Of a stretch of 46,670 bases of DNA, positions 176 through 13,057 are shown in pieces. Within the stretch, counting starts at the first letter, position 1. Each line of letters opens with the position of its first letter. The notes beneath the pieces are model-generated. The model saw nothing but the letters and a program-made list of their open reading frames with translations. It searched no databases and was not told the DNA's origin. The stretch comes from a virus: the IMG/VR virus record IMGVR_UViG_3300046804_004525, positions 1 to 46,670 of that record; one strand, 5' to 3'. The position numbers and the translations under genes were made by a program.

Positions 176-213
176 TTGACGTTTCCGGTTTGGTCTGGTA
201 GGATATTTCCACA
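176..213 (+). promoter_or_regulatory. Early promoter for the gene at 214
   Basis: TTGACG (176-181), 17 bp, TAGGAT (199-204), then 9 nt ending CCACA directly before the ATG. Confidence 0.85.
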
Positions 214-420
214 ATGAATACTGAATCTGTCCAAGTTCTACATAAAAGGATCAATGATGTTAACGCTACGTGTAAGGGTGATATTGATGCTCACTTGGCT
301 TTGTGTCGTTTGTTGGGTGTTATCACTGGTTATGTGCCTGGTAACATTAATATCAAGGAATCTGAGCAACAGTATGTATTGACTCGGGTACTTGAGATAC
401 TGAATAGTAGCAAGAAGTAA
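214..420 (+). CDS. Hypothetical protein, 68 aa
   Basis: A 68-residue soluble protein, probably largely helical, with no recognised family. The ATG is fixed by the promoter: it lies exactly 9 nt after the -10 box and no ribosome-binding site precedes it, as for most genes in this region. The next gene follows after 21 nt without its own TTGAC box, so the two are probably co-transcribed. Confidence 0.75.
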   Translation: MNTESVQVLHKRINDVNATCKGDIDAHLALCRLLGVITGYVPGNINIKESEQQYVLTRVLEILNSSKK

Positions 421-441
421 TTAAATAACTAAATAAAACAT

Positions 442-849
442 ATGAGTACCCGAAGTCTTATTGCTATTAAGAATACTGACAATATCCGTTACATTTATTG
501 TCACTGTGATGGTTATCTCGCTCACAATGGACGTATTCTTCTTCAGAGTTACAATACTCCTGAGATTATCAACAAACTGATTGACGGTGGCAGTTTGTCT
601 ATTTTGGGTAAGAATATCTCTACGGACAAGCCTCATTCGTTTAAGAATCCCGTTGATGGTGTTTGTGTGTATTACGGACGAGACAGAAATGAGACCAATG
701 TCGCTCCCAGGACTTGTGACACTGAGGAGGAGTTGTTGGCTGAGGGTAAGGACCGATGGGCTGACTATGTGTATTTGTATGATGGTGTATGGAAGTGTAA
801 CCACCTGAGATTTGATCTGGTTGAGTTTACTCCGGATGACTGTAAGTGA
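442..849 (+). CDS. Conserved phage hypothetical protein (MSTRSLIAI family), 135 aa
   Basis: The N-terminus MSTRSLIAIKN followed by YIYCHCDGYLAHNGRILLQ resembles a family of small proteins common in tailed phages that begin MSTRSLIA and carry a CHWDGYP-like motif. Its function is unknown. The second half is acidic with several Trp and Tyr. It is the second gene of a two-gene unit, preceded by an AT-rich linker without a Shine-Dalgarno sequence. Overlapping frames on both strands are shadows. Confidence 0.85.
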   Translation: MSTRSLIAIKNTDNIRYIYCHCDGYLAHNGRILLQSYNTPEIINKLIDGGSLSILGKNISTDKPHSFKNPVDGVCVYYGRDRNETNVAPRTCDTEEELLAEGKDRWADYVYLYDGVWKCNHLRFDLVEFTPDDCK

Positions 850-887
850 TTAGTGAGTGAGGTTTGGGGTAATCCTATGAAACCCCA

Positions 888-922
888 TTGACTTTTGGTG
901 TGGGGTGTGATAATATAGTATT
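888..922 (+). promoter_or_regulatory. Early promoter giving a leaderless mRNA
   Basis: TTGACT (888-893), 17 bp, TAATAT (911-916), then only 6 nt before the ATG at 923. The expected start of transcription is the A of the ATG. Confidence 0.8.
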
Positions 923-1096
923 ATGATTGATTATACCGTATTTGATAATGAAGTAAAGTTGGCTAATGATAAGAGTGGATTGAGTGATGGTAATGCTATT
1001 GCTTCATCACAATCTATTGAACACTTGATTAGGGCTATTGAGGCTTTGGGTGATATTGTAAAACAATTAGATACCCAAACCAAATCAAGTACTTAA
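923..1096 (+). CDS. Small hypothetical protein, 57 aa
   Basis: The frame begins MIDYTVFDNEVKLANDKSG and continues through a helical segment to a TAA at 1094-1096. It is supported by the well-formed promoter 6 nt upstream and by codon use like its neighbours (GGT, AGT, ATT rich). The C-terminal half could form an amphipathic helix. No family was recognised. Confidence 0.7.
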   Translation: MIDYTVFDNEVKLANDKSGLSDGNAIASSQSIEHLIRAIEALGDIVKQLDTQTKSST

Positions 1097-1105
1097 AAAA
1101 AGTTG

Positions 1106-1139
1106 TTGACTTTTTGGCTGGTTGGTTTACAGTATCTCC
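1106..1139 (+). promoter_or_regulatory. Promoter of structured RNA copy A
   Basis: TTGACT (1106-1111), 16 bp, TACAGT (1128-1133). By analogy with the mRNA promoters, transcription should start at A1140 after CTCC. Confidence 0.75.
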
Positions 1140-1207
1140 AACAGCTGACAAAGCGAGGGTAGGGTACCTGGGGGTGCGTTAATAGAATTAACGATAACGA
1201 AAAAAAG
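1140..1207 (+). ncRNA. Small RNA, copy A of a three-copy family
   Basis: No start codon follows this promoter. The sequence begins ACAGCTGACAAAGC-GAGGGTAGGG, which matches copies at 11006 (+) and 5033 (-). A perfect 7-bp hairpin (CGTTAAT / ATTAACG) lies at about 1178-1194. The end is not defined; the next promoter begins at 1221. The role is unknown. The region could also be a DNA-level site, but its position at the predicted start of transcription favours an RNA. Confidence 0.6.
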
Positions 1208-1220
1208 TTAAAGAAAGTCG

Positions 1221-1257
1221 TTGACCTTTTCAGGATGTCTGGTAGGATATTTGAACA
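1221..1257 (+). promoter_or_regulatory. Early promoter for the gene at 1258
   Basis: TTGACC (1221-1226), 16 bp, TAGGAT (1243-1248), 9 nt, ATG. Confidence 0.85.
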
Positions 1258-1452
1258 ATGAAGATCACGATTGAGTTTGATACTGACAATGCGGCTTGGG
1301 AAGATAATTGGATCTCCGAGACTGATCGTATCATGGCTAATGTAGTTAACAATGTACATGATGCGTTTATGTGTCAGGGGGCTAAAATGGATACGTTCAG
1401 TGTGACTGATAGTAATGGTAATAAGATTGGTAGTGTTAAAATTAAAATCTAA
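1258..1452 (+). CDS. Hypothetical protein, 64 aa
   Basis: An acidic 64-residue protein starting MKITIEFDTDN with a C-terminal beta-like VTDSNGNKIGSVKIKI segment, which suggests a small alpha/beta fold. No family was recognised. The start is set by the 9-nt promoter-to-ATG spacing. The acidic gene at 1461 follows after 8 nt and should share its transcript. Confidence 0.75.
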   Translation: MKITIEFDTDNAAWEDNWISETDRIMANVVNNVHDAFMCQGAKMDTFSVTDSNGNKIGSVKIKI

Positions 1453-1460
1453 ATAATAAT

Positions 1461-1652
1461 ATGGACTACGAAGATATTGCATACGAGGATAGTGTTAGTA
1501 GCGATACTGGTTGGCCTGGTGATGGTAGTGGCGAGGATGACTTCCAGGATTACAACCAGAACGAGGCCGATGACTACCGGGACGAGGGTAGGGAGGATGA
1601 CTGGCTGGAGAGCGACTACGAAGACCGCACCGATATTGGGTACGATTACTAG
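1461..1652 (+). CDS. Very acidic small protein, 63 aa
   Basis: Almost half of the 63 residues are Asp or Glu, spaced with Gly, Tyr and Trp, and almost no basic residues are present. Such composition occurs in DNA-mimic anti-restriction or inhibitor proteins, but also in unrelated low-complexity proteins, so this is only a suggestion. The +1 frame over the same span is a shadow. A GC-richer codon choice (GAC, GAG, TAC) sets it slightly apart from its neighbours. It has no own promoter or Shine-Dalgarno sequence. Confidence 0.65.
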   Translation: MDYEDIAYEDSVSSDTGWPGDGSGEDDFQDYNQNEADDYRDEGREDDWLESDYEDRTDIGYDY

Positions 1653-1675
1653 TCAAAAATAGTTGCAGAAAACCC

Positions 1676-1712
1676 TTGAAAAAGGGCCGGGTTGGTCTAT
1701 ACTGTTTTCACG
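1676..1712 (+). promoter_or_regulatory. Early promoter for the gene at 1713
   Basis: TTGAAA (1676-1681), 16 bp, TATACT (1698-1703), 9 nt, ATG. Confidence 0.8.
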
Positions 1713-2036
1713 ATGAACAAAGCGATTGTCACTTACGTCAAGAATCAGTTGGCTACCAACCCGGCCTGGGCTACACGGGCTATCGTGAAGCTCTGGCAAC
1801 GTCAGACGGCCGATGAGCAGGCCACCCAATCCACCGGTCAGGACAACGGGATTGGTTTCAATGGTACGGACGCTTTTATCCTTAGTTCTTTTGCTGAACA
1901 AATCAACAAGGGCCGTACTCTTAGCCCTAAACAGCTTGCTATTGCTTTTAAGAAGCTTCCGAAGTATAGTAAGCAGATCATCAGTGAGATACCCGCTGAG
2001 AAGTTGGTTGAACTGGAAAAGAAGGCTACTGTTTAA
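1713..2036 (+). CDS. Conserved phage hypothetical protein, 107 aa
   Basis: Matches by eye a small family widespread in phages with the pattern NPAWATRAIVKLWQRQTADEQ, NGIGFNGTDAFILSSFAEQ, GR-LSPKQ and KYSKQI. No function is established. The ATG at 1713 is chosen over an in-frame TTG at 1692 because the latter lies inside the promoter and 1713 has the standard 9-nt spacing from TATACT. The membrane-protein gene at 2040 follows after 3 nt. Confidence 0.85.
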   Translation: MNKAIVTYVKNQLATNPAWATRAIVKLWQRQTADEQATQSTGQDNGIGFNGTDAFILSSFAEQINKGRTLSPKQLAIAFKKLPKYSKQIISEIPAEKLVELEKKATV

Positions 2037-2039
2037 TAT

Positions 2040-2240
2040 ATGTTAACTACTGATTTTGTACAATTATTCAAACTGGTGACAGATAGTGTTAGTAACTATT
2101 TGTTTGCTATGTTTACCATATTGTTGTTGTATAGTCTGTTATTTGCTCTTATTAAGCATATTACCAACTGTATTGTGACCGTTGTATTGGCGTGTAGGGC
2201 GTCTATTACAACGAAGAAAACAGACGATGAAAATATTTGA
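2040..2240 (+). CDS. Small membrane protein, 66 aa
   Basis: A hydrophobic stretch at residues 21-53 (LFAMFTILLLYSLLFALI, then IVTVVLAC) could form one or two transmembrane helices. The C-terminal tail (TTKKTDDENI) is hydrophilic. The ATG is 3 nt after the upstream stop, so translation is probably coupled. The function is unknown; small membrane proteins of early phage regions often act on host membranes, but nothing here shows that. Confidence 0.7.
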   Translation: MLTTDFVQLFKLVTDSVSNYLFAMFTILLLYSLLFALIKHITNCIVTVVLACRASITTKKTDDENI

Positions 2241-2249
2241 GCTGGGGGC

Positions 2250-2286
2250 TTGACGTTTACAGAAACTCTGATAATCTATTACCACA
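2250..2286 (+). promoter_or_regulatory. Early promoter for the helicase gene
   Basis: TTGACG (2250-2255), 16 bp, TAATCT (2272-2277), 9 nt (ATTACCACA), ATG. Confidence 0.85.
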
Positions 2287-3651
2287 ATGAATTTTGACTT
2301 TTCTAAACTGTTGGAACCGCAACGTAATCATGTTATAAATCTGGTTAACAGTCTTTATATCAATGGTGTTGCGTTTGATGCGAGTGAGACTGGTACTGGT
2401 AAGACCTATTGTTCAGCTTGGGTGGCAAAGAACTTTAATAGTCCTATTGTTGTTATTTGTCCCAAGGTTGTGATTAATGGGTGGCGGACTGTACTGAGTG
2501 AGTTTGGTATCAAGGCGGATGTTATTATTAATTATGAGAAGTTGACTCGGGGTAATACACCGTATCTGTCTTTTAAAAATAATCGTGATGATAGTCCTGA
2601 TGACTATATCTTTAGCTTCCCCAAGAATAGTTTGGTGATCATCGATGAAAGTCATAAGTGTAAGGGTTGGACTAGTAAGAACAGTGATATGCTTATTGCA
2701 CTTAAGAAGAATAACTATAAGTTGTTGTTGTTGAGTGCTACAGCGGCTACTAATCCACTTGAGATGAGGAGTTTTGGTTTTGCTACTACACTTCATAACT
2801 TGATGAACTATCGTAACTTTATTTACGATTGTGGTGCTTATACTGGACGATTTGGTGGTTATCAGATTGATATTGGTAGTCAACGTGCTATTGAGTCAAT
2901 GAGTCAGATTCATGACAAGTTGTTCAATGTGTATAAGATTGGTAGCCGTATGACCCGTAAGATGTTTAAGAATATCTTTCCGGACAATCATGTTATGGCT
3001 GAATGTTTTGATATGGGTACCAATACTGCCAAGATTCAACGTGTGTATGAACAGATGGAAGCTGAATTGGCGGCTCTAGAGGAATCTAGTGTTAATTACA
3101 GTCAACATCACTTTGCTATCATGACCAAGGCACGTCGTCTTACTGAACTTCTCAAGGTACCCACTATGGTGGAAATGATTGAGGATTGGTTTGATGAAGG
3201 TATTAGCCCTGTTGTGTTTGTCAATTTCACTGACACTGTTGAGGCAATTGAGAAACAACTCAAGAAGAACAAGAAGTTTGATGGATTGATCAGTAAGATT
3301 GTGGGTGGTCAAACTGATAAACAACGTCAGAGTGATATTGATGGATTTCAGAATGATACTAAACGTATTATGATTGCTAATTTGGCGGCTGGTAATGCGG
3401 GTATTAGTCTTCATGATTTGAATGGTAAATTTCCACGTGGTAGTGTTATTAGTCCTAGTTACAGTGCTATTAACATGTTACAGGCACTTGGCCGAATTCA
3501 TCGGGCTAATGGTAAGACTACGTGTATACAGAAGATTATGTTTGCCTCTGATACAATTGAGGAACAGGCTTGTCGTCGTGTTCAATCCAAACTTAATAAT
3601 TTGGATGCATTAAACGATGGAGATCTAACGTTTAGTGTTAGGTTGATCTAA
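2287..3651 (+). CDS. SNF2/DEAD-like superfamily 2 helicase, 454 aa
   Basis: Walker A is ETGTGKT at residues 34-40, motif II is DESH at 120-123, motif III is SAT at 150-152, and motif VI is QALGRIHRANG from about 399. The arrangement, with a motif Ia-like VVICPK at 55-60, fits SF2 enzymes of the SNF2/UvsW-like type that move on or remodel DNA using ATP. At 454 residues it is a minimal two-RecA-domain enzyme without extra domains. A role in phage DNA replication or recombination is inferred from the family. Its 3' end overlaps the convergent endonuclease gene by 14 nt. Confidence 0.92.
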   Translation: MNFDFSKLLEPQRNHVINLVNSLYINGVAFDASETGTGKTYCSAWVAKNFNSPIVVICPKVVINGWRTVLSEFGIKADVIINYEKLTRGNTPYLSFKNNRDDSPDDYIFSFPKNSLVIIDESHKCKGWTSKNSDMLIALKKNNYKLLLLSATAATNPLEMRSFGFATTLHNLMNYRNFIYDCGAYTGRFGGYQIDIGSQRAIESMSQIHDKLFNVYKIGSRMTRKMFKNIFPDNHVMAECFDMGTNTAKIQRVYEQMEAELAALEESSVNYSQHHFAIMTKARRLTELLKVPTMVEMIEDWFDEGISPVVFVNFTDTVEAIEKQLKKNKKFDGLISKIVGGQTDKQRQSDIDGFQNDTKRIMIANLAAGNAGISLHDLNGKFPRGSVISPSYSAINMLQALGRIHRANGKTTCIQKIMFASDTIEEQACRRVQSKLNNLDALNDGDLTFSVRLI

Positions 3652-4330
3652 CCTCATATAGTTCTTTAGTTCGTTCATTATATCTAAAGAACTTACAACC
3701 TAGATGTGTTATGATACGTTGTTGTCGTAACACATCTTTTTGTTTAAGATTTCCTAACTTATCATAATGAGATGATTCATCATATTCAACCACGATGTTG
3801 TTTTGTTTATCATATGAATCCACAAAATAATTGAGTATCCTAACCTCACCTCCATTTAAAGCGTGTTGTAGTTTCCAATTGTTATTTTGATTCAAAGTGT
3901 CAAAGTACATACATGCTGTTGGGTTATAATTTGCCCACGTATGTTTGTTTCTCATGTTTTCAAGAATTTTTTGTTTGTGTAGTTCGTATTTACATTTACG
4001 ACAAACTTGATTCTTTTTACTAGCTTTAGTACAATGTGTTACTGAAGAATATGTCAATGTAACATTACATTGAGGACAATTTCTAGATCTAGATTTACTC
4101 CATCCTTTTTTACTAACTGCAACATCAGCTGAACAAGTATAACATTTAGAGTTTCGTTTAATCCCAACTTTGTATGTTGATTTACAACTATATACTATAT
4201 CTTTGTTACACGTCGGGCAGTGTCTTGTCCACGTTGTTGTGATAACGTTCAAGTTTTTCTTTTCTGATTCTATTACGATTTTTTCTGTAGAATCGTTCGT
4301 ATCGTTTTCTGTTTTGCTCTCGGATTTCAT
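3638..4330 (-). CDS. Zinc-ribbon homing-endonuclease-like protein, 230 aa
   Basis: Paired cysteines (38/41, 63/66, 85/88, 110/113) suggest zinc ribbons. The C-terminal half carries QHALNGGE (155-162), the block VDSYDKQNNIVVEYDE ending at 185, H188, KD at 199-200, then RQQRIITHLGCKFFRY, a pattern of Vsr-like (EDxHD-type) homing nucleases. It is antisense to all neighbours, typical of an inserted selfish gene. The N-terminus given (MKSESKTEND) may be a frameshifted product: see the 4206-4361 entry. Activity is unproven. Confidence 0.75.
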   Translation of the reverse strand: MKSESKTENDTNDSTEKIVIESEKKNLNVITTTWTRHCPTCNKDIVYSCKSTYKVGIKRNSKCYTCSADVAVSKKGWSKSRSRNCPQCNVTLTYSSVTHCTKASKKNQVCRKCKYELHKQKILENMRNKHTWANYNPTACMYFDTLNQNNNWKLQHALNGGEVRILNYFVDSYDKQNNIVVEYDESSHYDKLGNLKQKDVLRQQRIITHLGCKFFRYNERTKELYEVRST

Positions 4331-4361: not shown

Positions 4362-4408
4362 AACATTAATAAATAGTAAATAGTTGGAAAAAACGTTGGA
4401 AAAAGTTG

Positions 4409-4792: not shown

Positions 4793-4804
4793 CTCTACAA
4801 TAAC

Positions 4805-5033
4805 AAAAAACCACAGGAAACATTCTCATCGACTATGTGGGATCGTAGGGGTAACCTTACGGTCCCATTCTCTTTGCATAAAGGTCTATAGGCACGCTTT
4901 TGACGGTCAAGGAGGGTGACTACACCAGCCTAGGCAACAGAATGCGCCAGGCGCAAAGCCACGCAATGGATCTTTAACGATAACGGTATTGGTGCAGGGT
5001 CCGGTCCCCTACCCTGGCTTTGTCAGCCGATCT
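4805..5033 (-). ncRNA. Small RNA, copy B of the three-copy family (leftward)
   Basis: Read leftward, the RNA would start at A5033 with AGATCGGCTGACAAAGCC, then AGGGTAGGGGACC and ATACCGTTATCGTTAA, closely matching copy C at 11006. The 390-nt gap between the flanking genes has no convincing ORF. Further leftward are a near-palindrome GCGCCTGGCGC, an AGTCACCCTC segment and a stem near 4841-4871, ending at a run of six U (about 4805-4810) after CCACA...TGTGG. Only the first 60 nt are supported by comparison; the 3' end is a guess. Confidence 0.5.
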
Positions 5034-5067
5034 GGATACACTGTACCAGGTCTGGTGCAGACCACAA
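5034..5067 (-). promoter_or_regulatory. Leftward promoter of structured RNA copy B
   Basis: On the minus strand TTGTGG (5067-5062), 16 bp, TACAGT (5045-5040), then GTATCC before the expected start at A5033. The -35 box is weaker than in the other copies. Confidence 0.5.
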
Positions 5068-5094
5068 GCGAAAAGTGCAGAAAAGTGAGGGGGC

Positions 5095-5316: not shown

Positions 5317-5329
5317 TCAAAAATAGCCG

Positions 5330-5366
5330 TTGACTTTCTGGCTGGCTGGTGTAGGATATTCCCACG
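5330..5366 (+). promoter_or_regulatory. Early promoter for the gene at 5367
   Basis: TTGACT (5330-5335), 16 bp, TAGGAT (5352-5357), 9 nt (ATTCCCACG), ATG. Confidence 0.85.
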
Positions 5367-5528
5367 ATGATTCCTACGTGTAAGACTTGGATGGTGACTG
5401 TGGAACGCAACGGCAAGCTGCTTAGTGTTCCCGTTGAGGCTCCTACCCGCAAGCTGGCTGTGCTGAACTACCGTTGTGAGGTGAGCCTACGTGACGTGAT
5501 TCTCACGGTTGGATTGAAGCGAAAATAA
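5367..5528 (+). CDS. Small hypothetical protein, 53 aa
   Basis: The ORF starts MIPTCKTWMVTVERNGKLLS, is probably a small beta-rich basic protein, and ends VGLKRK. It is too short for many gene finders but has the standard promoter and 9-nt spacing, and is followed after 3 nt by the next TTGACT box. No family was recognised. Confidence 0.75.
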   Translation: MIPTCKTWMVTVERNGKLLSVPVEAPTRKLAVLNYRCEVSLRDVILTVGLKRK

Positions 5529-5531: not shown

Positions 5532-5568
5532 TTGACTTCCACCTGAAACCTGATAATCTATTCCCACA
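5532..5568 (+). promoter_or_regulatory. Early promoter for the gene at 5569
   Basis: TTGACT (5532-5537), 16 bp, TAATCT (5554-5559), 9 nt (ATTCCCACA), ATG. Confidence 0.85.
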
Positions 5569-5823
5569 ATGAATACGATCACTTGGACCAAGATCAAGAG
5601 CACCGTCCCTAACCTCCACGTCGCCTTCAACGAGGCTGATGAGCCTATGGGTATGATTGACAAGCCTGTGGATACCCGCAGCAGCAAGAACTTCTGGCGC
5701 ATGTATGTTGGTGTGGGTGCTGAAGCCAAGTTCCTTGGCCACGCTGTGAGCAAGAAGGAAGCGATGAACCATGTTCATTGGGCGGTTGAGATGAGCAACG
5801 CCACGGTGGCTGTGGTTGGTTAA
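5569..5823 (+). CDS. Hypothetical protein, 84 aa
   Basis: An 84-residue protein with a plausible alpha/beta layout: FRMYVG-like strand region at 68-75 and a helix (SKKEAMNHVHWAVEMS) at 60-76. The codon use is GC-richer than in nearby genes (GTC, CTC, AAG). No family was recognised. The ATG is set by the promoter. A new promoter starts 9 nt after its stop. Confidence 0.72.
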   Translation: MNTITWTKIKSTVPNLHVAFNEADEPMGMIDKPVDTRSSKNFWRMYVGVGAEAKFLGHAVSKKEAMNHVHWAVEMSNATVAVVG

Positions 5824-6573: not shown

Positions 6574-6610
6574 TTGACTTTCTGGCTGGTTGAGGTATTC
6601 TATTTGAACG
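6574..6610 (+). promoter_or_regulatory. Early promoter for the gene at 6611
   Basis: TTGACT (6574-6579), 16 bp, TATTCT (6596-6601), 9 nt, ATG. Confidence 0.85.
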
Positions 6611-6916
6611 ATGAAGCTACTGACTAACGAACTGAAGCGGAAGTTGACCAAGGCTGGTTACAATAACACCACCCCGATTTGTAAGCTGTTTACTCCATGG
6701 GGGCGTGCTACTTGGTTGATTACTGGTATGGAGGATGGCATTCTGTATGGGTTTGCTGACCTTGGTATGGATTGTGTGGAATGGGGTGGTATTGCTTCAC
6801 TTGAGGAGATGGAGGCGATCCGTGGACCGTTTGGTTTGAAGGTTGAACGGGATCTGTATTGGACCCCGGAGGTTGGGGTGGATTATGTTGGAAAAGAAAG
6901 TTTGATGGGGGCTTGA
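6611..6916 (+). CDS. DUF2958-like protein, 101 aa
   Basis: MKLLTNELKRKL, followed by CKLFTPWGRATWLITGMEDGILYGFADLGMDCVEWG, SLEEMEAIRGP and VERDLYW, matches DUF2958, a small family on plasmids and phages with no defined function. The length (about 100 aa) is normal. Its stop TGA (6914-6916) lies within the TTGACA box of the next promoter, so the two genes share these bases. Confidence 0.85.
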   Translation: MKLLTNELKRKLTKAGYNNTTPICKLFTPWGRATWLITGMEDGILYGFADLGMDCVEWGGIASLEEMEAIRGPFGLKVERDLYWTPEVGVDYVGKESLMGA

Positions 6917-6949
6917 CATTTTCTGAAACTCTGGTAATCTATTTCCACG
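6913..6949 (+). promoter_or_regulatory. Early promoter overlapping the upstream stop codon
   Basis: TTGACA (6913-6918) contains the TGA of the gene at 6611. It is followed by 16 bp, TAATCT (6935-6940), 9 nt and ATG. Confidence 0.85.
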
Positions 6950-7117
6950 ATGAAGATTGACCGATTGGAAAAAGCTATCCGAACCATCCGCCGCCGCATC
7001 TGGAATATGACTCCCGAACGGCAGGACCGTGCTATTCAGGCTATTCATACGCTCAAGAACCGAATCAATTATCAGCCTGTTACCCGCAACTATCATTGGA
7101 TGTATGCTTGTGAATAA
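6950..7117 (+). CDS. Small basic hypothetical protein, 55 aa
   Basis: The ORF starts MKIDRLEKAIRTIRRRIWNM and appears to be a basic helical protein that could bind nucleic acid, though nothing specific shows this. It ends WMYACE at the TAA 7115-7117. Support comes from the promoter with 9-nt spacing and from compact packing with neighbours. No family was recognised. Confidence 0.75.
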   Translation: MKIDRLEKAIRTIRRRIWNMTPERQDRAIQAIHTLKNRINYQPVTRNYHWMYACE

Positions 7118-7120: not shown

Positions 7121-7157
7121 TTGACTTCCCGATAAAACCTGATATTCTATTTTCACA
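7121..7157 (+). promoter_or_regulatory. Early promoter for the gene at 7158
   Basis: TTGACT (7121-7126), 16 bp, TATTCT (7143-7148), 9 nt, ATG. Confidence 0.85.
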
Positions 7158-7376
7158 ATGAAAAACACGAAAAACACTAAAAAGAACGTTAATCCTGAGT
7201 TTGTGGTGGTTGGTAACAGTGGACTGGGTGATGGTCCTTATGATAATACGATATTAGTTACCCGAGATAAGTTGGATATGATGATATCTAAGCGAGGTAC
7301 TTCTTGGATTAAGAGGATGTATAAGTTGGGTAATGAGGTAAAGTTTCTTGCTCCTGAGTATGTTGATGAGAATTAA
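7158..7376 (+). CDS. Hypothetical protein, 72 aa
   Basis: A 72-residue protein with a Lys/Asn-rich start (MKNTKNTKKNVNPEF) and a later segment DKLDMMISKRGTSWIKRMY. No family was recognised. It is the first gene of a pair with 7384, whose ATG follows after 7 nt. Confidence 0.7.
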   Translation: MKNTKNTKKNVNPEFVVVGNSGLGDGPYDNTILVTRDKLDMMISKRGTSWIKRMYKLGNEVKFLAPEYVDEN

Positions 7377-7383: not shown

Positions 7384-7560
7384 ATGACTGAAACAAATAA
7401 AGAGCGGTTGATGGAGTTATTGGGTGAGATTAGGCAGTGGAACAATACTGATATTGAGTGTTATGATGATACTACACCGAACTTGGTGATGCTTGAAGCA
7501 AGAAAAGCGGTGATTGATGAAGTGTTTAAGCTGGTGAAGAAAATTAAAAAAAGCTGTTGA
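7384..7560 (+). CDS. Small helical hypothetical protein, 58 aa
   Basis: Starts MTETNKERLMELLGEIRQW and is predicted almost wholly helical, ending with a basic tail (KLVKKIKKSC). An upstream in-frame TTG start is rejected because it would overlap the previous gene. The stop TGA (7558-7560) lies in the TTGACT of the next promoter. Confidence 0.7.
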   Translation: MTETNKERLMELLGEIRQWNNTDIECYDDTTPNLVMLEARKAVIDEVFKLVKKIKKSC

Positions 7561-7594
7561 CTTTTCCACGGGAATCCTGTAAGGTATAACCACG
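7557..7594 (+). promoter_or_regulatory. Early promoter overlapping the upstream stop codon
   Basis: TTGACT (7557-7562) contains the TGA of the gene at 7384. It is followed by 17 bp, TAAGGT (7580-7585), 9 nt and ATG. Confidence 0.8.
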
Positions 7595-7837
7595 ATGACT
7601 GATGAATCTGAAATCTCAATGAGACTTAAAACCTACACGGTGAGTATAAGTGTAGTTACTCTTGAGGATGAAAATGCTGAGGGTGATTCTATTATTAAAG
7701 ACTTCATTCAGAGTGAGATACAGAAGAAAATTAGTGAAGAACATATGTTTGATGACAAAAATGGTGGTGTTGTGTTCTTTTTTGGGTATAATGTGAATAG
7801 TGTTGAAATGATTCGGTCAATCAGTGCATTTAAATAA
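7595..7837 (+). CDS. Hypothetical protein, 80 aa
   Basis: An acidic protein with alternating strand-like and helix-like segments (LKTYTVSISVVTLEDE, then DFIQSEIQKKISEE). No family was recognised. Start chosen by the promoter spacing; MRL at residue 9 would be an alternative start. Confidence 0.7.
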   Translation: MTDESEISMRLKTYTVSISVVTLEDENAEGDSIIKDFIQSEIQKKISEEHMFDDKNGGVVFFFGYNVNSVEMIRSISAFK

Positions 7838-7849: not shown

Positions 7850-7887
7850 TTGACTTCCCCACGGGAAACCTGTAGATTATTAACACG
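7850..7887 (+). promoter_or_regulatory. Early promoter for the gene at 7888
   Basis: TTGACT (7850-7855), 17 bp, TAGATT (7873-7878), 9 nt, ATG. Confidence 0.82.
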
Positions 7888-8076
7888 ATGAAGGATTTAC
7901 CTCTACCTGACAAGAATGCTCGTTATCGTTTTCATTTTAAAGATGGTTCTATTTGGAAGATTTCAGAGAGTGAAGACTTTGTTGATGGGACGGTGATGCT
8001 CTATGAGTGTGAAACTGGTCAAGAGGGATATTGGACACTGACAAAGTTTTACGAATATTTTGAAGAAATTGATTGA
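7888..8076 (+). CDS. Hypothetical protein, 62 aa
   Basis: An acidic, aromatic-rich small protein (RYRFHFKDGSIWKI, then YWTLTKFYEYFEEID), possibly a small beta-barrel-like fold. No family was recognised. Its TGA (8074-8076) is embedded in the next TTGACT box. Confidence 0.72.
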   Translation: MKDLPLPDKNARYRFHFKDGSIWKISESEDFVDGTVMLYECETGQEGYWTLTKFYEYFEEID

Positions 8077-8110
8077 CTTCCCAACGAGAAGCCTGTACAC
8101 TATTCCCACG
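8073..8110 (+). promoter_or_regulatory. Early promoter overlapping the upstream stop codon
   Basis: TTGACT (8073-8078) contains the TGA of the gene at 7888. It is followed by 17 bp, TACACT (8096-8101), 9 nt and ATG. Confidence 0.82.
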
Positions 8111-8341
8111 ATGAAAACTTGGTTAACTTGTGATGAAAACGGGTGTGTCCATCGTAATAATCATTATGACGGACAAGAATTTGAACGTGAATATATTGGC
8201 ACTATTGAACATACAAAGGATGGTAAACTGCGTTGGTTTCAAACTTATGGAGATGATCGGACATTTACCGTGGCGGAATTGAAACAAATCATTGAGTTTA
8301 TTGAGGGGAAAAATTTTTTGAAAAAGCTGTTGACTTTTTGA
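8111..8341 (+). CDS. Hypothetical protein, 76 aa
   Basis: Starts MKTWLTCDENGCVHRNNHYD. The central part reads like a small beta sheet (YIGTIEHTKDGKLRWFQ) and the end is a basic helix. A longer frame beginning at 8060 would run through the promoter and is rejected. Its last codons overlap the next promoter: CTGTTGACTTTTTGA encodes LLTF-stop. Confidence 0.72.
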   Translation: MKTWLTCDENGCVHRNNHYDGQEFEREYIGTIEHTKDGKLRWFQTYGDDRTFTVAELKQIIEFIEGKNFLKKLLTF

Positions 8342-8367
8342 ATGGGGTGGGGTAATCTATTTCCACG
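8330..8367 (+). promoter_or_regulatory. Early promoter inside the 3' end of the upstream gene
   Basis: TTGACT (8330-8335) lies in the last codons of the gene at 8111. It is followed by 17 bp, TAATCT (8353-8358), 9 nt and ATG. Confidence 0.82.
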
Positions 8368-8583
8368 ATGAACGCTGAAGCCAAGAAAGACTTCAACAAG
8401 ATATCTGTTCAAAGCAGATTGGTCAAGAAACAACAAGCTAATGCTTTTCGTGAAGGTAGGGTTGAAGATGCCAAACGTTTTCAACTGGAAGAAGAGGCGT
8501 TACGTTTAATTTCCAACAATATCCAAGCGGGATATTCGTATCCAACATTTGAAGACCTAATCAATCTTCTACAAAAATTTTAA
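8368..8583 (+). CDS. Helical hypothetical protein, 71 aa
   Basis: A charged, mostly helical protein (AKKDFNKISVQSRLVKKQQA, EEEALRLISNN). No family was recognised. ATG set by the 9-nt rule. A basic and an acidic segment alternate, as in small adaptor or inhibitor proteins, but no function can be assigned. Confidence 0.7.
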   Translation: MNAEAKKDFNKISVQSRLVKKQQANAFREGRVEDAKRFQLEEEALRLISNNIQAGYSYPTFEDLINLLQKF

Positions 8584-8592
8584 AAAAAGCGG

Positions 8593-8630
8593 TTGACTTT
8601 TTGGATGGGGTGGTGTAGGATATTTCCACG
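8593..8630 (+). promoter_or_regulatory. Early promoter for the gene at 8631
   Basis: TTGACT (8593-8598), 17 bp, TAGGAT (8616-8621), 9 nt, ATG. Confidence 0.85.
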
Positions 8631-8825
8631 ATGAAAGTTTATCTTGTTTACTTTGAAAGCATAAGCGAAGGTCGTAACGAACCAATAGGCGTGTTTGATA
8701 GTGAACGAAAAGCTCTTGATTGTGTAATCAAGGAATTTTATTCAGGCCCATTTTACTCTGGGATGAATCCCGATTGGTTAGATAAAAATGCTAGTTCTTA
8801 CATACAAGAAATGGAGGTTAAATGA
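8631..8825 (+). CDS. Hypothetical protein, 64 aa
   Basis: Begins MKVYLVYFESISEGRNEPIG with GVFDSERKALDCVIKEF, a strand-helix pattern seen in many small phage proteins that start VYLV and carry VFDSEEKA. The function is unknown. It is the last protein gene before an RNA-rich stretch. Confidence 0.75.
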   Translation: MKVYLVYFESISEGRNEPIGVFDSERKALDCVIKEFYSGPFYSGMNPDWLDKNASSYIQEMEVK

Positions 8826-8887
8826 TATGACGAATCTATTGCTTTGTTTGATTTTGTGGTGGGAAGAGAAAAAATTAAAAAAAGAGA

Positions 8888-8922
8888 TTGACTTTTCGGT
8901 GTGGGTAGGATAAAGTATTTTC
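8888..8922 (+). promoter_or_regulatory. Promoter of structured RNA D
   Basis: TTGACT (8888-8893), 17 bp, TAAAGT (8911-8916), expected start at A8923. No ORF follows. Confidence 0.78.
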
Positions 8923-9040
8923 AAGGTTGAGGTGGTGACTTGGTGTAGGGGAACAGTCCGCACGGTTTACTTAACTGTAAAAGAGAGCGCTCCGACTGGC
9001 GCAGTCACCCTCAACCCAAAACTTTTTCTAAAAAGTTCTT
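8923..9040 (+). ncRNA. Structured small RNA D
   Basis: The first bases GGTTGAGG...GTGACT (8925-8940) pair with AGTCACCCTCAACC (9003-9016), a 14-bp stem with a 2-nt bulge that closes the whole RNA. Inside are a hairpin GCGC...GGCGC and a possible ACAGT/ACTGT pairing. An inverted repeat (AACTTTTT / AAAAAGTT, about 9020-9037) follows and may mark the end. The internal GTAGGGGA, the GCGC hairpin and AGTCACCCTC recall copy B. Function unknown. Confidence 0.65.
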
Positions 9041-9072
9041 TACAAGTCAGAGAAATCTGATAAGATATTTAA
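9039..9072 (+). promoter_or_regulatory. Promoter of structured RNA E
   Basis: TTTACA (9039-9044), 16 bp, TAAGAT (9061-9066), expected start near A9073. Confidence 0.6.
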
Positions 9073-9218: not shown

Positions 9219-9263
9219 AATTAGGCTTACTTTTAGCAAGATTAAATTTTTCAAAAAAAGCTG

Positions 9264-9300
9264 TTGACTTCCCGCCACCTTCTGGTAACCTATTCCCACG
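9264..9300 (+). promoter_or_regulatory. Early promoter for the gene at 9301
   Basis: TTGACT (9264-9269), 16 bp, TAACCT (9286-9291), 9 nt (ATTCCCACG), ATG. Confidence 0.85.
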
Positions 9301-9477
9301 ATGAATAAACAAGACGACATTGAGATTCTGGACGCTATGAACAAGTATGGTGGTAGCTTTGCTAGATCCATCAGCCTGGCCGCTTGGGCTGCTGATAGCA
9401 CCAACTACGCCAAGCTCAAGGCTGCTTTTCCCGAACTGTGGGCACAATATGCTGTTTTCGTGAAGAAAGTCGCTTGA
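9301..9477 (+). CDS. Small conserved phage protein, 58 aa
   Basis: MNKQDDIEILDAMNKYGGSF followed by ARSISLAAWAADSTNYAKLK and AFPELWAQY matches a recurrent small phage protein type (GGSFxxxLAxAxxxADxxNxxKLxxAFPxxW). Function unknown. Its TGA (9475-9477) is inside the next TTGACT box. It lies too close to shadows on the other strand to have been obvious, but promoter and family pattern support it. Confidence 0.8.
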   Translation: MNKQDDIEILDAMNKYGGSFARSISLAAWAADSTNYAKLKAAFPELWAQYAVFVKKVA

Positions 9478-9519
9478 CTCCTCCAAAAAACCTGATAGAG
9501 TATTAACCACAATAAAAAT
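9474..9519 (+). promoter_or_regulatory. Early promoter overlapping the upstream stop codon
   Basis: TTGACT (9474-9479) contains the TGA of the gene at 9301. It is followed by 16 bp and TAGAGT (9496-9501). The ATG is 18 nt further on, so this transcript has a short leader. Confidence 0.75.
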
Positions 9520-9732
9520 ATGGATAATCCGTTTATTAAATTGGTGATTACGTTGTTGGCCTATACCATTGGTGTTGCTATAGCTAATGGTATTGTGATG
9601 TGGGTGTGGAATAGTATTATGCCTGAATTGTTTGGGTTTAAGACTATTGGATATTGGCAAATGTTTGGGTTGTATATAATTGGTAGTTATTTGTTTAAGA
9701 GTCACAAATACAATAAGAAGGAGTCTGAATAA
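9520..9732 (+). CDS. Small membrane protein, 70 aa
   Basis: Two hydrophobic helices, residues about 6-32 (FIKLVITLLAYTIGVAIANG) and 44-60 (IGYWQMFGLYIIGSYLF), flank a loop with PELFGFK. The layout resembles small membrane proteins of many phages whose function is unknown. The C-terminus is charged (KSHKYNKKESE). Confidence 0.75.
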   Translation: MDNPFIKLVITLLAYTIGVAIANGIVMWVWNSIMPELFGFKTIGYWQMFGLYIIGSYLFKSHKYNKKESE

Positions 9733-9793
9733 TTTTTAAATTAAAATTATTGCGTGCTTTTATAATAATACTAATTATTAACGCCGAAAGCGC

Positions 9794-9827
9794 TTGACAT
9801 CCTGAAAATCTTTGGTAAAGTATTCAC
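9794..9827 (+). promoter_or_regulatory. Early promoter giving a leaderless mRNA
   Basis: TTGACA (9794-9799), 16 bp, TAAAGT (9816-9821), 6 nt, ATG 9828. Transcription is expected to start at the ATG itself. Confidence 0.82.
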
Positions 9828-9953
9828 ATGAAAAATAAAATTAAAATTAGAAAATCCTGGGGAGATCTTAAACCCATCACCAAGCGCATTGATAGTGCTA
9901 AGATCTACAAGCGCAAGAGTAAGTTTGTAAATGGTTGGGGTGATCTCTCATAA
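9828..9953 (+). CDS. Small basic protein, 41 aa
   Basis: Reads MKNKIKIRKSWGDLKPITKR then IDSAKIYKRKSKF. It fits a class of tiny phage proteins with a RKxWGxxPxTKxxxSKKxYxRK pattern, function unknown. It is supported by a good promoter and family-like pattern, despite its size. The gene at 9966 follows after 12 nt. Confidence 0.75.
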   Translation: MKNKIKIRKSWGDLKPITKRIDSAKIYKRKSKFVNGWGDLS

Positions 9954-9965
9954 TATTAATACAGT

Positions 9966-10253
9966 ATGAATAATATTGATCCTGAAATCCAAACAGAACA
10001 ACTAGAAGATGCTAAATACCTAGAAGAACTTAATCACTACGTATCAGCTCTACCAACGCCATCAGCAGAAGCAGTAGCTCTATACAGAGCTAAACTCAGT
10101 ATGCTTGAAGATATTCATAATGAAATCAGAAATAAATACCCTGACTTCATGCCTGAATATGATCCTTCCATGGATGCTGAACTTAATCAAGACCTTGGCA
10201 AATACCAAGAACATATGTTCAGCGTTTCAGTCAAGGATATGCACGCTGAATAA
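9966..10253 (+). CDS. Acidic helical hypothetical protein, 95 aa
   Basis: Almost entirely helical by composition (LEDAKYLEELNHYVSAL, EAVALYRAKLSMLEDIHNEI), acidic, 95 residues. No family was recognised. It is the second gene of the unit that starts at 9828 and has no own promoter or Shine-Dalgarno sequence. Confidence 0.7.
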   Translation: MNNIDPEIQTEQLEDAKYLEELNHYVSALPTPSAEAVALYRAKLSMLEDIHNEIRNKYPDFMPEYDPSMDAELNQDLGKYQEHMFSVSVKDMHAE

Positions 10254-10270
10254 AAAGTTTAAAAAAGTTG

Positions 10271-10307
10271 TTGACTACCACAAGTTTTAGTCTATACTGT
10301 ATACCTC
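10271..10307 (+). promoter_or_regulatory. Early promoter for the gene at 10308
   Basis: TTGACT (10271-10276), 16 bp, TATACT (10293-10298), 9 nt, ATG. Confidence 0.85.
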
Positions 10308-10880
10308 ATGAAGAAACTCCAAAAGGAATTCAGCGGTAATTACGATAAGGTTGGTCTTAATAAGTTCATTCAGATCCGCAAGGAAAATGGTGTGGCTGTG
10401 TATGAACGTTACAACACTGATGGTACACTACGTGGTTACGAAGTGTTTATTGTTAAGGTTGTTCCCAAGGGCGCTCCATTGCCTAATGGCAAGACTGTAG
10501 AGGAATCATATGAACAGTATCCTGGGGCTAATGCCTTTGGTAAGACTGCTTATGATTGTCGTACACTAGATCAAGTGGAACGTCGTTTTGATGAACTGGT
10601 TGAGAAAGTGAAGCTTAGTGCCGAAGCAAAGGAAGAAGCTGAAAAGACTGGTAAACCTAATAAGGGACGTAGGTCTAATAGTACCAAAAAGGATGTTCCT
10701 ATTCCATCTAAAGGTACTAAGTTCAATATGAAGTTCCTTGTTACTAATACTGGTATTGATCAACCCACACTGTTTCCTATTGTTAAACGTTGGGAAGCTA
10801 CTGGACTGATTCGGGCTGTGGGTACGGTCAAGGCCGAAGGTGGTAAGGGTCGCCCAAGCATCCAATACGAGGTCATTTAA
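10308..10880 (+). CDS. Probable DNA-binding protein with C-terminal winged-helix-like domain, 190 aa
   Basis: Residues 1-95 form a conserved-looking phage domain (VYERYNTDGTLRGYEVFIVK, PKGAPLPNGKTVEESYEQYP). A basic linker (GKPNKGRRSNSTKK) follows. The last 60 residues (FNMKFLVTNTGIDQPTLFPI, then LIRAVGTVKAEGGKGRPSIQ) read like a winged helix-turn-helix with a Gly-rich wing. A transcriptional or replication role is inferred. A strong terminator follows, closing the unit. Confidence 0.7.
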   Translation: MKKLQKEFSGNYDKVGLNKFIQIRKENGVAVYERYNTDGTLRGYEVFIVKVVPKGAPLPNGKTVEESYEQYPGANAFGKTAYDCRTLDQVERRFDELVEKVKLSAEAKEEAEKTGKPNKGRRSNSTKKDVPIPSKGTKFNMKFLVTNTGIDQPTLFPIVKRWEATGLIRAVGTVKAEGGKGRPSIQYEVI

Positions 10881-10928
10881 GGGGTGCCAGAACGCGCCAG
10901 AATAGGTTATAGGGCGCTTTTGGGGGCT

Positions 10929-10960
10929 GAGGAGGGTATTCGTACCCTCCTCTTTTTTTT
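10929..10960 (+). terminator. Strong rho-independent terminator
   Basis: A perfect 10-bp stem (GAGGAGGGTA / TACCCTCCTC) with a TTCG loop is followed by eight T. Confidence 0.95.
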
Positions 10961-10971
10961 GCACTTTACTG

Positions 10972-11005
10972 TTGACTTCTAGGCCATTTGGTGTAAAGTT
11001 TCACC
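10972..11005 (+). promoter_or_regulatory. Promoter of structured RNA copy C
   Basis: TTGACT (10972-10977), 16 bp, TAAAGT (10994-10999), TTCACC, expected start A11006. Confidence 0.78.
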
Positions 11006-11080
11006 ATAGATCGGCTGAACAAGCTAGGGTAGGGGACCAAACCCTACCGTGATACCGTTAACATTAACGTAGAAAGTGCA
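11006..11080 (+). ncRNA. Small RNA, copy C of the three-copy family
   Basis: Starts ATAGATCGGCTGAACAAGC, then AGGGTAGGGGACC, matching copies A (1140) and B (5033, minus). A perfect 7-bp hairpin GGTAGGG / CCCTACC and a CGTTA / TAACG hairpin are visible. No ORF. The 3' end is undefined; the next promoter begins at 11090. Confidence 0.62.
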
Positions 11081-11089
11081 AAAAACCGC

Positions 11090-11126
11090 TTGAAATTTCC
11101 TGTGGGTGGTGTAAATTATTTCCACA
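11090..11126 (+). promoter_or_regulatory. Early promoter for the gene at 11127
   Basis: TTGAAA (11090-11095), 16 bp, TAAATT (11112-11117), 9 nt (ATTTCCACA), ATG. Confidence 0.8.
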
Positions 11127-11372
11127 ATGACTCTGAACCAATTCCAACAAGCCTTCGCCATCGCTAAAGACTTCAACCGGGATCTGTCCAACGTGGACGA
11201 TAGTATCCTGTATGGTTACGGTCTGTACAGCTTCAAGCCTGTTCACACCACCCTGGAAGCTGTGGCCAAGACCATTCGTTGGCAAGCTCTTCAATTCAAT
11301 GGTGAATGGAATGCCGAAGCCCTCAACGAGGTGGCTGAGAACGGACGAAAGAATTTCCTGATTCTTGGTTGA
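11127..11372 (+). CDS. Hypothetical protein, 81 aa
   Basis: Helix-rich 81-residue protein (MTLNQFQQAFAIAKDFNRDL, LEAVAKTIRWQALQFNGEWN). The codons are GC-richer than those of nearby genes. The family was not recognised, though similar small phage proteins with WQALQFNG-like motifs exist. Its TGA (11370-11372) lies in the next TTGACA box. Confidence 0.75.
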   Translation: MTLNQFQQAFAIAKDFNRDLSNVDDSILYGYGLYSFKPVHTTLEAVAKTIRWQALQFNGEWNAEALNEVAENGRKNFLILG

Positions 11373-11405
11373 CATTCTCCTAAAACCCTGTAGACTATCT
11401 CCACA
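11369..11405 (+). promoter_or_regulatory. Early promoter overlapping the upstream stop codon
   Basis: TTGACA (11369-11374) contains the TGA of the gene at 11127. It is followed by 16 bp, TAGACT (11391-11396), 9 nt and ATG. Confidence 0.85.
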
Positions 11406-11771
11406 ATGAAGAACCTAGTTCACGTTATCTATCCTGACGAATACCTCGCCTCCTTTATTGTTGAGGGTGAATACACTGCCGAAGATATTCTGGAACGTGT
11501 ATTCGCTCAATGGAATCACGGTAGTGGTTGTGAGTGTGAACAGTTTATCAATTCCAAGAAACGTTCTCTGAGCGTCAATGATATTGTGTGTGTCAATGGT
11601 ACATACTATCAGTGTGCTAGTTTTGGTTGGAATGAAGTGACGCCTCAGTATGTTACTAAATTGGAATACGAAGTGTCAATTCATCCTCGACGTAATGATG
11701 GCGCTTGGTTTGTGTTACACGATATCATGTGGGATTGGAATAAGAAAAAGAATCTGGTGGTTACTCGTTAA
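11406..11771 (+). CDS. Conserved phage hypothetical protein, 121 aa
   Basis: Pattern MKNLVHVIYPDEYLASFIVE, ILERVFAQWNHGSGCECEQF, RSLSVNDIVCVNGTYYQCAS and GW-EVT resembles a phage protein type with an RSLSVGDxV core, related in appearance to YodL-like domains. No activity is known. It heads a run with 11794 and 12086, whose starts follow short AT-rich linkers, so three genes probably share this promoter. Confidence 0.8.
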   Translation: MKNLVHVIYPDEYLASFIVEGEYTAEDILERVFAQWNHGSGCECEQFINSKKRSLSVNDIVCVNGTYYQCASFGWNEVTPQYVTKLEYEVSIHPRRNDGAWFVLHDIMWDWNKKKNLVVTR

Positions 11772-11793
11772 AATATTAAATAATTAAATAATT

Positions 11794-12078
11794 ATGACTC
11801 TTACACAACGTTACAGTAATGATACTATGATCCGCAATTACATTCGTATTCACGATCCTGGTCATAGTTGGTTAGAAGTGCCTATCAAGGATGTTCGTGA
11901 TATTGCCGGTGTATGGGATAATATTACAAATTATTCTCCTCTTAAGCGACACAAGTTCTATCTGGAGGAAGATTGTGATATGTACACCTTCTACAAAGCC
12001 ATGAAGGATAAGGGCTACACTATCAATATCAATGATATTCATGTGGATGACTTTGACGAATATCTAGATAATCTTTAA
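11794..12078 (+). CDS. Conserved phage hypothetical protein, 94 aa
   Basis: Contains HDPGHSWLEVPIKDV (about 19-33) and FYLEEDCDMYTFYKAMKDKG (about 54-73), the two signatures of a small protein frequent in phage and plasmid genomes (HDxGHxWLxVP ... YLEEDCD). Function unknown. It lies between genes at 11406 and 12086 in one unit, with no Shine-Dalgarno sequence. Confidence 0.85.
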   Translation: MTLTQRYSNDTMIRNYIRIHDPGHSWLEVPIKDVRDIAGVWDNITNYSPLKRHKFYLEEDCDMYTFYKAMKDKGYTININDIHVDDFDEYLDNL

Positions 12079-12085
12079 TAATACT

Positions 12086-12313
12086 ATGAGAGAATTGGAA
12101 CGATTAAAAGAAGAATTATCACTATCAATATTTGGCCGTAGTGTATCATTAGCTAAAGCTGGTAATCAGTGTATTAGTTGTGGTAAACGTGCTGATACAT
12201 TTAGAGATGAAATCAGCGAAAGTGAATATCAGATTAGTTGTCTGTGTCAAGCCTGTCAAGACCAGGTTTTTGAGGAGGTAGATTCCCTAATAAAAAATGC
12301 TGGTTCCCGTTGA
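12086..12313 (+). CDS. Small zinc-binding-like protein, 75 aa
   Basis: Two cysteine pairs, CISCGKRAD at 29-32 and CLCQACQD at 53-58, could bind one zinc. The stretch SKAGNQCISCGK...DEISESEYQISCLC matches a phage protein pattern in which both pairs flank an YxISxxC segment. The role is unknown. Its TGA (12311-12313) is part of the next TTGACT box. Confidence 0.78.
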   Translation: MRELERLKEELSLSIFGRSVSLAKAGNQCISCGKRADTFRDEISESEYQISCLCQACQDQVFEEVDSLIKNAGSR

Positions 12314-12346
12314 CTTATCTGCCTGGTAGAGTATAGTATTTCCACG
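12310..12346 (+). promoter_or_regulatory. Early promoter overlapping the upstream stop codon
   Basis: TTGACT (12310-12315) contains the TGA of the gene at 12086. It is followed by 16 bp, TATAGT (12332-12337), 9 nt and ATG. Confidence 0.85.
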
Positions 12347-12532
12347 ATGAAGAAACCCTCTATCAAGTCTGAACCAGTCACCACCTCCACTGTCATGGTC
12401 AATGGCGTTCCTACCGTGATCAAGTCCAACGAGAAGGTGGTCCGTAACCTCATGTCCCAGAAGGAGATCGTCATCAGCAAGAACACGCCAATGTGCTGTG
12501 ACCCGTCTACTGAGACCTACTGGTCCATGTAA
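12347..12532 (+). CDS. Hypothetical protein, 61 aa
   Basis: Beta-like central part (TSTVMVNGVPTVIKSNEKVV) and a CC pair near the end (PMCCDPSTE). No family was recognised. Codons are GC-rich (GTC, ATC, TCC). The start follows the 9-nt rule. Confidence 0.72.
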   Translation: MKKPSIKSEPVTTSTVMVNGVPTVIKSNEKVVRNLMSQKEIVISKNTPMCCDPSTETYWSM

Positions 12533-12579
12533 CAGCTACGAAAGGTTGTGGGTGATCCGAAAAAACCCTCAAAAAACTG

Positions 12580-12616
12580 TTGACTCTGTCCTGAACTCTG
12601 ATATTCTATTTCCACA
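12580..12616 (+). promoter_or_regulatory. Early promoter for the gene at 12617
   Basis: TTGACT (12580-12585), 16 bp, TATTCT (12602-12607), 9 nt, ATG. Confidence 0.85.
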
Positions 12617-12889
12617 ATGAACGATCTGGTTACCCACATTCAGAACCTCAACGCCAAGACCCAAGCCTGGATCAACGAGGATCCCAAGAACCGATTCGCT
12701 ACCATGATTGTGGAGGATCTGTCTCATTGGGCCGGCTACGGCGTTGAGACGGTTGACCAGTTTGAGCACTTCATGGCGGCTACGGACGTGTACGAGGTCA
12801 CCAAGGAACGGTACGGCTACAGGCCAGACTGGAACCGGCTCATGGCCATGAGCACCGAGGAGCTGACGATAGCTCTAACAATGCTGTAA
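12617..12889 (+). CDS. Conserved phage hypothetical protein, 90 aa
   Basis: The segment LNAKTQAWINEDPKNRFATM with LSHWAGYGVETVDQFEHFMA and YRPDWNRLMAMS resembles a small phage protein type with an HW-x-Y-G-V/I-x-T motif. It is probably all-helical. The function is unknown. Codon use is GC-rich. Confidence 0.75.
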   Translation: MNDLVTHIQNLNAKTQAWINEDPKNRFATMIVEDLSHWAGYGVETVDQFEHFMAATDVYEVTKERYGYRPDWNRLMAMSTEELTIALTML

Positions 12890-12906
12890 AAAGTTGCAGA
12901 AATCCG

Positions 12907-12943
12907 TTGACTTCCACCTGAACTCTGGTATTCTTTTTTCACG
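12907..12943 (+). promoter_or_regulatory. Early promoter for the gene at 12944
   Basis: TTGACT (12907-12912), 16 bp, TATTCT (12929-12934), 9 nt, ATG. Confidence 0.82.
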
Positions 12944-13057
12944 ATGAACGACGAACTTCACAACTACGAGATGACGGCTGAGGAACTTCCCGAATACGAG
13001 ATCTTCCTCGCTGAGATCAGTGATACTCCCACTATGTCTGATTATCTGGTGGGCTAA
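12944..13057 (+). CDS. Tiny acidic protein, 37 aa
   Basis: Reads MNDELHNYEMTAEELPEYEI then FLAEISDTPTMSDYLVG. Over a quarter of residues are acidic. It is supported by a standard promoter with 9-nt spacing; the longer gene at 13104 follows after 46 nt of repetitive ACTAATACTA-type linker, which has no TTGAC box. Confidence 0.65.
   Translation: MNDELHNYEMTAEELPEYEIFLAEISDTPTMSDYLVG

Follow-up and report, generated by a model that had tools for sequence, protein, structure and literature searches.

Leaderless genes with a TANNNT box adjacent to the open reading frame (ORF) are known from Deinococcus-Thermus and Actinobacteria (PMC12340547, PMC3160421). In Deinococcus radiodurans, the box lies approximately 6-7 bp from the ORF and no -35 element is required (PMC12340547). 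Single phage mRNAs with a 5'-terminal AUG, such as that of lambda cI, have also been described (PMC3160421, PMC9031893), and leaderless translation is reportedly reduced by distance from the 5' end (PMC9031893). Leaderless initiation is usually seen as either a minority mode or a relic, and the known phage cases are single genes. Here, we describe a stretch of viral DNA of 46,670 nucleotides (nt), IMG/VR record IMGVR_UViG_3300046804_004525 (hereafter the window), in which early promoters of the type TTGAC-16/17-TANNNT are fused to the start codons of the genes that they precede, typically at a spacing of exactly 9 nt between the -10 box and the ATG. According to our analysis, the presence of this promoter-start architecture in the phage clade to which the window belongs is certain.

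Early promoters are fused to start codons

At all 21 gene starts named in a preliminary description of the window, the ATG stands exactly 9 nt past TANNNT, and TTGA(C/A) is found 16-17 nt before this box. The -35 element begins with exact TTGAC in 19 of these genes and with TTGAA at genes 1713 and 11127. The exact TTGAC version at 9 nt occurs 19 times in the window, compared with a mean of 0.12 and a maximum of 2 in dinucleotide shuffles, and none of 100 shuffles reached 19. When promoter sites were picked without conditioning on a gene, an ORF began exactly 9 nt past the box at 19 of the 32 TTGAC-16/17-TANNNT sites on the plus strand (binomial P ~2e-35 for one given distance). A gene-first scan displayed TANNNT at 9 nt in 22 of the 52 first-in-frame plus-strand starts before 13.7 kb; every other distance was represented by at most 4 starts, and later genes lacked the 9-nt peak.

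The early fusions of the window are all located on the plus strand. The first of them, at 176-216 (gene 214-420), reads TTGACG-17-TAGGAT-ATTTCCACA-ATG. It is followed by fusions with the same box-to-ATG distance (d) of 9 nt at 1221-1260 (gene 1258-1452, with d = 9 also in 7 of 7 orthologues), at 1676-1715 (gene 1713-2036, -35 element TTGAAA), whose orthologues have shifted N-termini and yet still begin at the promoter, and at 2250-2289, which heads a helicase gene (2287-3651). Further downstream, d = 9 is found at 5330-5369 (gene 5367-5528), 5532-5571 (gene 5569-5823), 6574-6613 (gene 6611-6916, likewise in orthologues at 67-80% identity), 6913-6952 (gene 6950-7117), 7121-7160 (gene 7158-7376), 7557-7597 (gene 7595-7837), 7850-7890 (gene 7888-8076), 8073-8113 (gene 8111-8341), 8330-8370 (gene 8368-8583), 8593-8633 (gene 8631-8825) and 9264-9303 (gene 9301-9477). 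The remaining ones are at 10271-10310 (gene 10308-10880, most orthologues of which have 8-11 nt), 11090-11129 (gene 11127-11372, -35 element TTGAAA), 11369-11408 (gene 11406-11771), 12310-12349 (gene 12347-12532), 12580-12619 (gene 12617-12889) and 12907-12946 (gene from 12944).

Two early promoters, at 888-925 (gene 923-1096) and 9794-9830 (gene 9828-9953), have the shorter distance of 6 nt that had been claimed for them, and their mRNAs are predicted to be leaderless. At gene 4447, 10 nt separate box and ATG. Genes 442, 1461, 2040, 9966, 11794, 12086 and others lack individual promoters and lie behind a promoter-headed gene. The earlier view that the entire early region shares one identical architecture was thus overstated, as it passed over these operon-internal genes and a few ordinary leaders.

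The fusion is conserved among relatives

Four uncultured relatives were found via the helicase of the window (76-77% identity) without use of the motif, and all of them share the fusion; many more contigs were collected by motif search. A scan for a fixed box-to-ATG distance, as suggested in the preliminary description, was run on the window and 17 related contigs and gave a peak at 9 nt (6 nt, 46 sites; 7 nt, 24; 8 nt, 34; 9 nt, 227; 10 nt, 30; 11 nt, 14). All other distances held 0-5 sites each, and those below 6 nt were nearly empty, which gives the distribution a sharp lower edge at 6 nt.

Orthologues at 30-85% identity retain the fusion, even where their N-termini are shifted. Among 384 orthologue pairs, 194 have a distance of 9 nt on both sides, and in 131 the aligned N-termini are of unequal length, with each protein still beginning at its own promoter. 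Substitutions between orthologues fall mostly at third codon positions from codon 2 on. This coding-type divergence, together with N-termini that track the promoters, shows that the ATGs are genuine starts and that the start codon follows the promoter.

Shine-Dalgarno (SD) motifs, which the preliminary description had found missing from the early transcripts, are nearly absent upstream of the genes of the clade, including genes other than the promoter-headed ones: AGGAG precedes 1.3% of genes, and AGGA 10% compared with 3.5% in shuffles. Genes without a promoter have an A-rich upstream region with T at position -1 in 70%. The near-absence of SD motifs suggests that initiation in the host is probably largely independent of SD pairing. 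These observations also bear on the idea that the mRNAs carry ordinary leaders and that the true starts are downstream ATGs with SD sites. A few early genes with longer leaders (5885, 9520) would be compatible with it, but the scarcity of SD motifs, the coding-type divergence from codon 2 of the proposed ORFs and the movement of start codons with their promoters make this exceedingly improbable.

Predicted transcription start and leader

Promoters without a nearby ORF carry a purine at position 7 past the -10 box (A49, G27), mostly preceded by C or T at position 6. At promoters with d = 9, the corresponding consensus is C6 (84%), A7 (92%), C8 (85%) and R9 (89%), followed by AAN as codon 2 (A in 97% and 88% at its first two bases). 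C8, R9 and the AAN codon are specific to coding promoters; in other genes, codon 2 begins with A in 55%. Since gene-less promoters and those of noncoding RNAs (ncRNAs) keep C6-A7, position 7 is taken as the transcription start (+1). This would leave a 3-nt leader at d = 9, which reads ACA in 131 and ACG in 63 of 233 cases, and none at d = 6. Of the sites with d = 7, 77% have a pyrimidine at position 7, and the A of the ATG occupies position 8; these mRNAs are predicted to be leaderless as well, with +1 moved by one base. A strictly zero leader fits 99 sites (d = 6-7), and the main class (d = 9, 233 sites) has a predicted leader of 3 nt. We posit that near-leaderless mRNAs are very likely produced from the early promoters. 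The previously proposed leader of approximately 3 nt, beginning at the A of CCA, is well supported by the position-7 initiator, the distance edge at 6 nt and the conservation across the clade.

The restriction of C8, R9 and AAN to coding promoters suggests that they probably act in translation, as a signal that supplements the transcription initiator. A translation signal would also be expected if CCACRATGAA were purely a ribosome-recognition element, with transcription beginning farther upstream or reading through and the nearby -10 box not setting the 5' end. We regard this as quite improbable, as C6-A7 is kept at promoters without an ORF, including those of ncRNAs, and the distance cut-off at 6 nt is that expected if the ATG never lies upstream of +1. 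A role of CCAC solely as a ribosome site was rejected on the grounds that ncRNA promoters retain C6-A7. Start codons at d = 9 were ATG in 223 cases and GTG or TTG in 4. The 70S or non-canonical initiation suggested earlier is compatible with the lack of SD motifs, the preference for ATG and the AAN codon, which fit it and do not amount to proof.

Promoters that precede no ORF are located at 1106, 8888 and 10972 on the plus strand and near 5040 on the minus strand. Three of them head copies of an ncRNA family of approximately 80 nt with the arrangement (A)AGATCGGCUGA-CAAGCU-AGGGUAGGGGACC-hairpin-GUUAACG. These copies lie at 1106-1200 (GCTGACAAAGCGAGGGTAGGG; predicted start A 1140, C6-A7), at 10972-11073 (predicted start A 11006, C6-A7) and, on the minus strand, at 4955-5068 (TACAGT 5045-5040, predicted start A 5033, RNA 5033-4960). 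The family is also present in several relatives (G001, G003-G006), with up to several copies per genome, and its promoters nearly always keep C6-A7. It was not reported by an Rfam scan at the gathering threshold and is apparently undescribed. The fourth promoter, at 8888-9020 (predicted start A 8923, C6-A7), precedes a strongly foldable segment (8923-9020; -36 kcal/mol, z ~ -1.7), possibly another early structured RNA.

A second promoter class in the late region

An unbiased enrichment analysis of 7-mers in the upstream regions of 1,238 genes revealed TATTTAT ending 4-6 nt before the ATG, with 175 cases observed compared with approximately 11 expected. Nearly all cases have A or C just before it, giving [A/C]TATTTAT, and no -35 element is obvious. 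Rearranging the letters of TATTTAT gives 20 further 7-mers, none of which had a comparable peak save shifted overlaps of TATTTAT itself. In a sample of 21 contigs chosen by capsid protein, independently of the motif, the class was present in all 21 and mostly on one strand; reversed-pattern controls were much lower. In the window, boxes of this class are found on the plus strand at 27813-27828 (gene 27826-28236, ATG 6 nt after the box), 32829-32843 (gene 32841-33383, 5 nt), 34868-34884 (gene 34882-37242, 7 nt), 37903-37916 (gene 37914-38963, 4 nt) and 40504-40519 (gene 40517-40855, 6 nt). The genes headed by TATTTAT belong to the late or structural part (32841, 34882, 37914 and 40517 in the window), and it is from this gene content that we infer late timing. 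The preliminary description, which was confined to early genes, was correct for the early fusion and too narrow in scope, since the late-type class is fused to starts as well.

Late promoters of phage T4, TATAAATA, depend on gp55 and consist of a short A/T box with no obvious -35 element. The second class resembles them in both architectural respects and in its position upstream of late-region genes. It differs in that [A/C]TATTTAT stands on the coding strand with the ATG 4-6 nt on, and in that a gp55 homologue was not recognised in the largely fragmentary contigs. The coding-strand TATTTATA is enriched, whereas TATAAATA and ATAAATA are without a comparable positional peak. By analogy with T4, mRNAs of the TATTTAT class are probably leaderless too, with +1 on the A of the ATG or directly beside it.

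Two unrelated boxes that obey the same rule also speak to the origin of the uniform spacing. The 9 nt could reflect descent from a recently duplicated promoter-plus-start cassette, free of functional constraint, as might be suggested by the recurring upstream A-tracts, -35 element and CCACRATGAA and by identical 9-nt strings (ATTTCCACA occurs 16 times). However, the second class has a box unrelated to the early one, the early -10 core is highly variable (TATTCT, TAGGAT, TAATCT, TATACT and others), spacers measure either 16 or 17 nt, and most promoter-spacer bases diverge by 45-55% between orthologues, with box positions diverging less. We therefore consider descent without constraint improbable; selection on spacing is needed, and cassette shuffling may also occur.

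Proposed expression programme

We consider it highly probable that the phages express near-leaderless early and leaderless late units through fused promoters and starts, with host ribosomes that act independently of SD pairing. Early in infection, unmodified host RNA polymerase of the sigma70 type would read TTGAC-16/17-TANNNT with its A-rich upstream region and start at the A of the C-A initiator, 7 nt past the -10 box. The mRNA would read 5'-AC(A/G)-AUG-AAN at d = 9, and at 6-7 nt the AUG itself would form the 5' end. Ribosomes would then initiate at this 5'-proximal AUG, and the internal genes of short operons would be reached from the preceding gene or via A-rich junctions devoid of SD motifs. 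Later, in many late units, transcription from [A/C]TATTTAT would begin on the A of the ATG or on a base adjoining it and yield leaderless mRNAs. A broader version, in which most early and late expression of the clade comes from leaderless or near-leaderless mRNAs of two unrelated promoter classes and, in the main early class, ribosomes recognise 5'-ACR-AUG-AAN as an initiation signal that differs from SD-led starts as well as from strictly leaderless ones, is put forward tentatively, as somewhat less than an even prospect.

Several points weigh against the proposed programme. The 5' ends of the mRNAs are placed by sequence, and most motif-bearing relatives were selected by the motif itself, which does not hold for the window, the four relatives found via the helicase or the contigs sampled by capsid. 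Longer distances between box and ATG occur at genes 9520 (18 nt) and 5885 (24 nt), as expected of longer leaders. The gp55 families phrog_234 and phrog_12791 had no match in the largely fragmentary contigs, and PHROGs scans of mid-size proteins from two relatives had no late sigma factor among the 25 families shown. As gp55 was not recognised, the late class is defined by its motif and by the genes that it precedes.

Phage identity and possible hosts

The window derives from a large phage of the T4 superfamily. Its relatives, in which marker genes were read where they share the helicase or early genes of the window, are T4-superfamily myoviruses with a gp23-like major capsid protein, T4-type terminase, portal and sheath, and the window itself encodes PhoH, Hsp20, GP88 and a tail-fibre-like protein. 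GP88 is matched by the C-terminal half of a 532-residue protein (16031-17629) with a long N-terminal extension. Between the early block and the transfer RNA (tRNA)/late block lie three minus-strand genes (13945-15753), one for a hexapeptide-repeat transferase and two that belong to unknown families.

The window contains 17 tRNA genes within 8 kb (18030-25831), interspersed with small ORFs and shortly followed by a transfer-messenger RNA (tmRNA); many longer relatives carry approximately 16-37 tRNAs and often a tmRNA. The tmRNA (27199-27582) encodes a 20-residue tag, AEENVVSYDFSYDEVVAIAA, and similar tags with a V/I-V/I-S/A-Y-D-F core are found in six relatives. No blastn relative of the tmRNA was found among phages. 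The degenerate tag pattern matched only 35 places in the genome collection and led to no matching bacterial tmRNA; ARAGORN was run on 19 loci, with the further Psychrobacter copies not taken individually, and detected none. A search for the composite promoter-start element in 150 genomes from a single proteobacterial phylum and in four other genomes gave no match.

The nearest cultured phages are Microcystis phage Mel-JY01 and Flavobacterium phage immuto, with a capsid identity of approximately 49-50% and a related terminase. Mel-JY01 lacks both peaks of the clade, that at 9 nt and that of TATTTAT. It has some TTTG/TANNTTTG sites of the Bacteroidetes type, 30-71 nt from the ATG, and was the only one in which ribosomal protein S21, sought as a host clue, was found. 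Mel-JY01 (PP395634) was deposited as a Microcystis phage; given these features and its closeness to phages of Flavobacterium, this host may have been assigned wrongly. For the clade, Bacteroidetes-type promoters were rejected, since TTTG-TANNTTTG is rare and does not share the orientation of the genes.

Comparison with known systems

If the proposed programme is correct, the predictable 5' ends at two promoter types across a clade would provide a natural test bed for 5'-end-dependent translation, could reveal the role of the 3-nt leader and the reason for the constraint on codon 2, and would show how a phage packs each gene as a promoter-plus-start module of approximately 45 bp. The strong start-site rule is usable for the annotation of these uncultured phages and offers a handle on their hosts, which are expected to translate leaderless or SD-less mRNAs well.

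No description of a phage programme of this architecture was found in the open-access literature searched. The early fusions resemble the leaderless genes of Deinococcus-Thermus and Actinobacteria in having a -10-like TANNNT just before the start and no leader or a very short one. They differ from those of D. radiodurans in their modal distance of 9 nt, the explicit TTGAC -35 element, the fixed ACR leader and AAN as codon 2. The 3-nt mode is the main departure from the known leaderless rule, because distance from the 5' end reportedly lowers leaderless translation and the Deinococcus box lies at approximately 6-7 bp. Unlike the genes of these bacterial groups, the fusions form a phage programme with a second, late-type class and almost no SD motifs, and unlike lambda cI, they extend over whole early and late programmes across a clade, usually with a 3-nt leader. 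Leaderless genes with an ORF-adjacent -10 box were thus already known, and what is new is that a phage clade as a whole organizes its programme in this way, through two promoter classes and with a fixed ACR leader.

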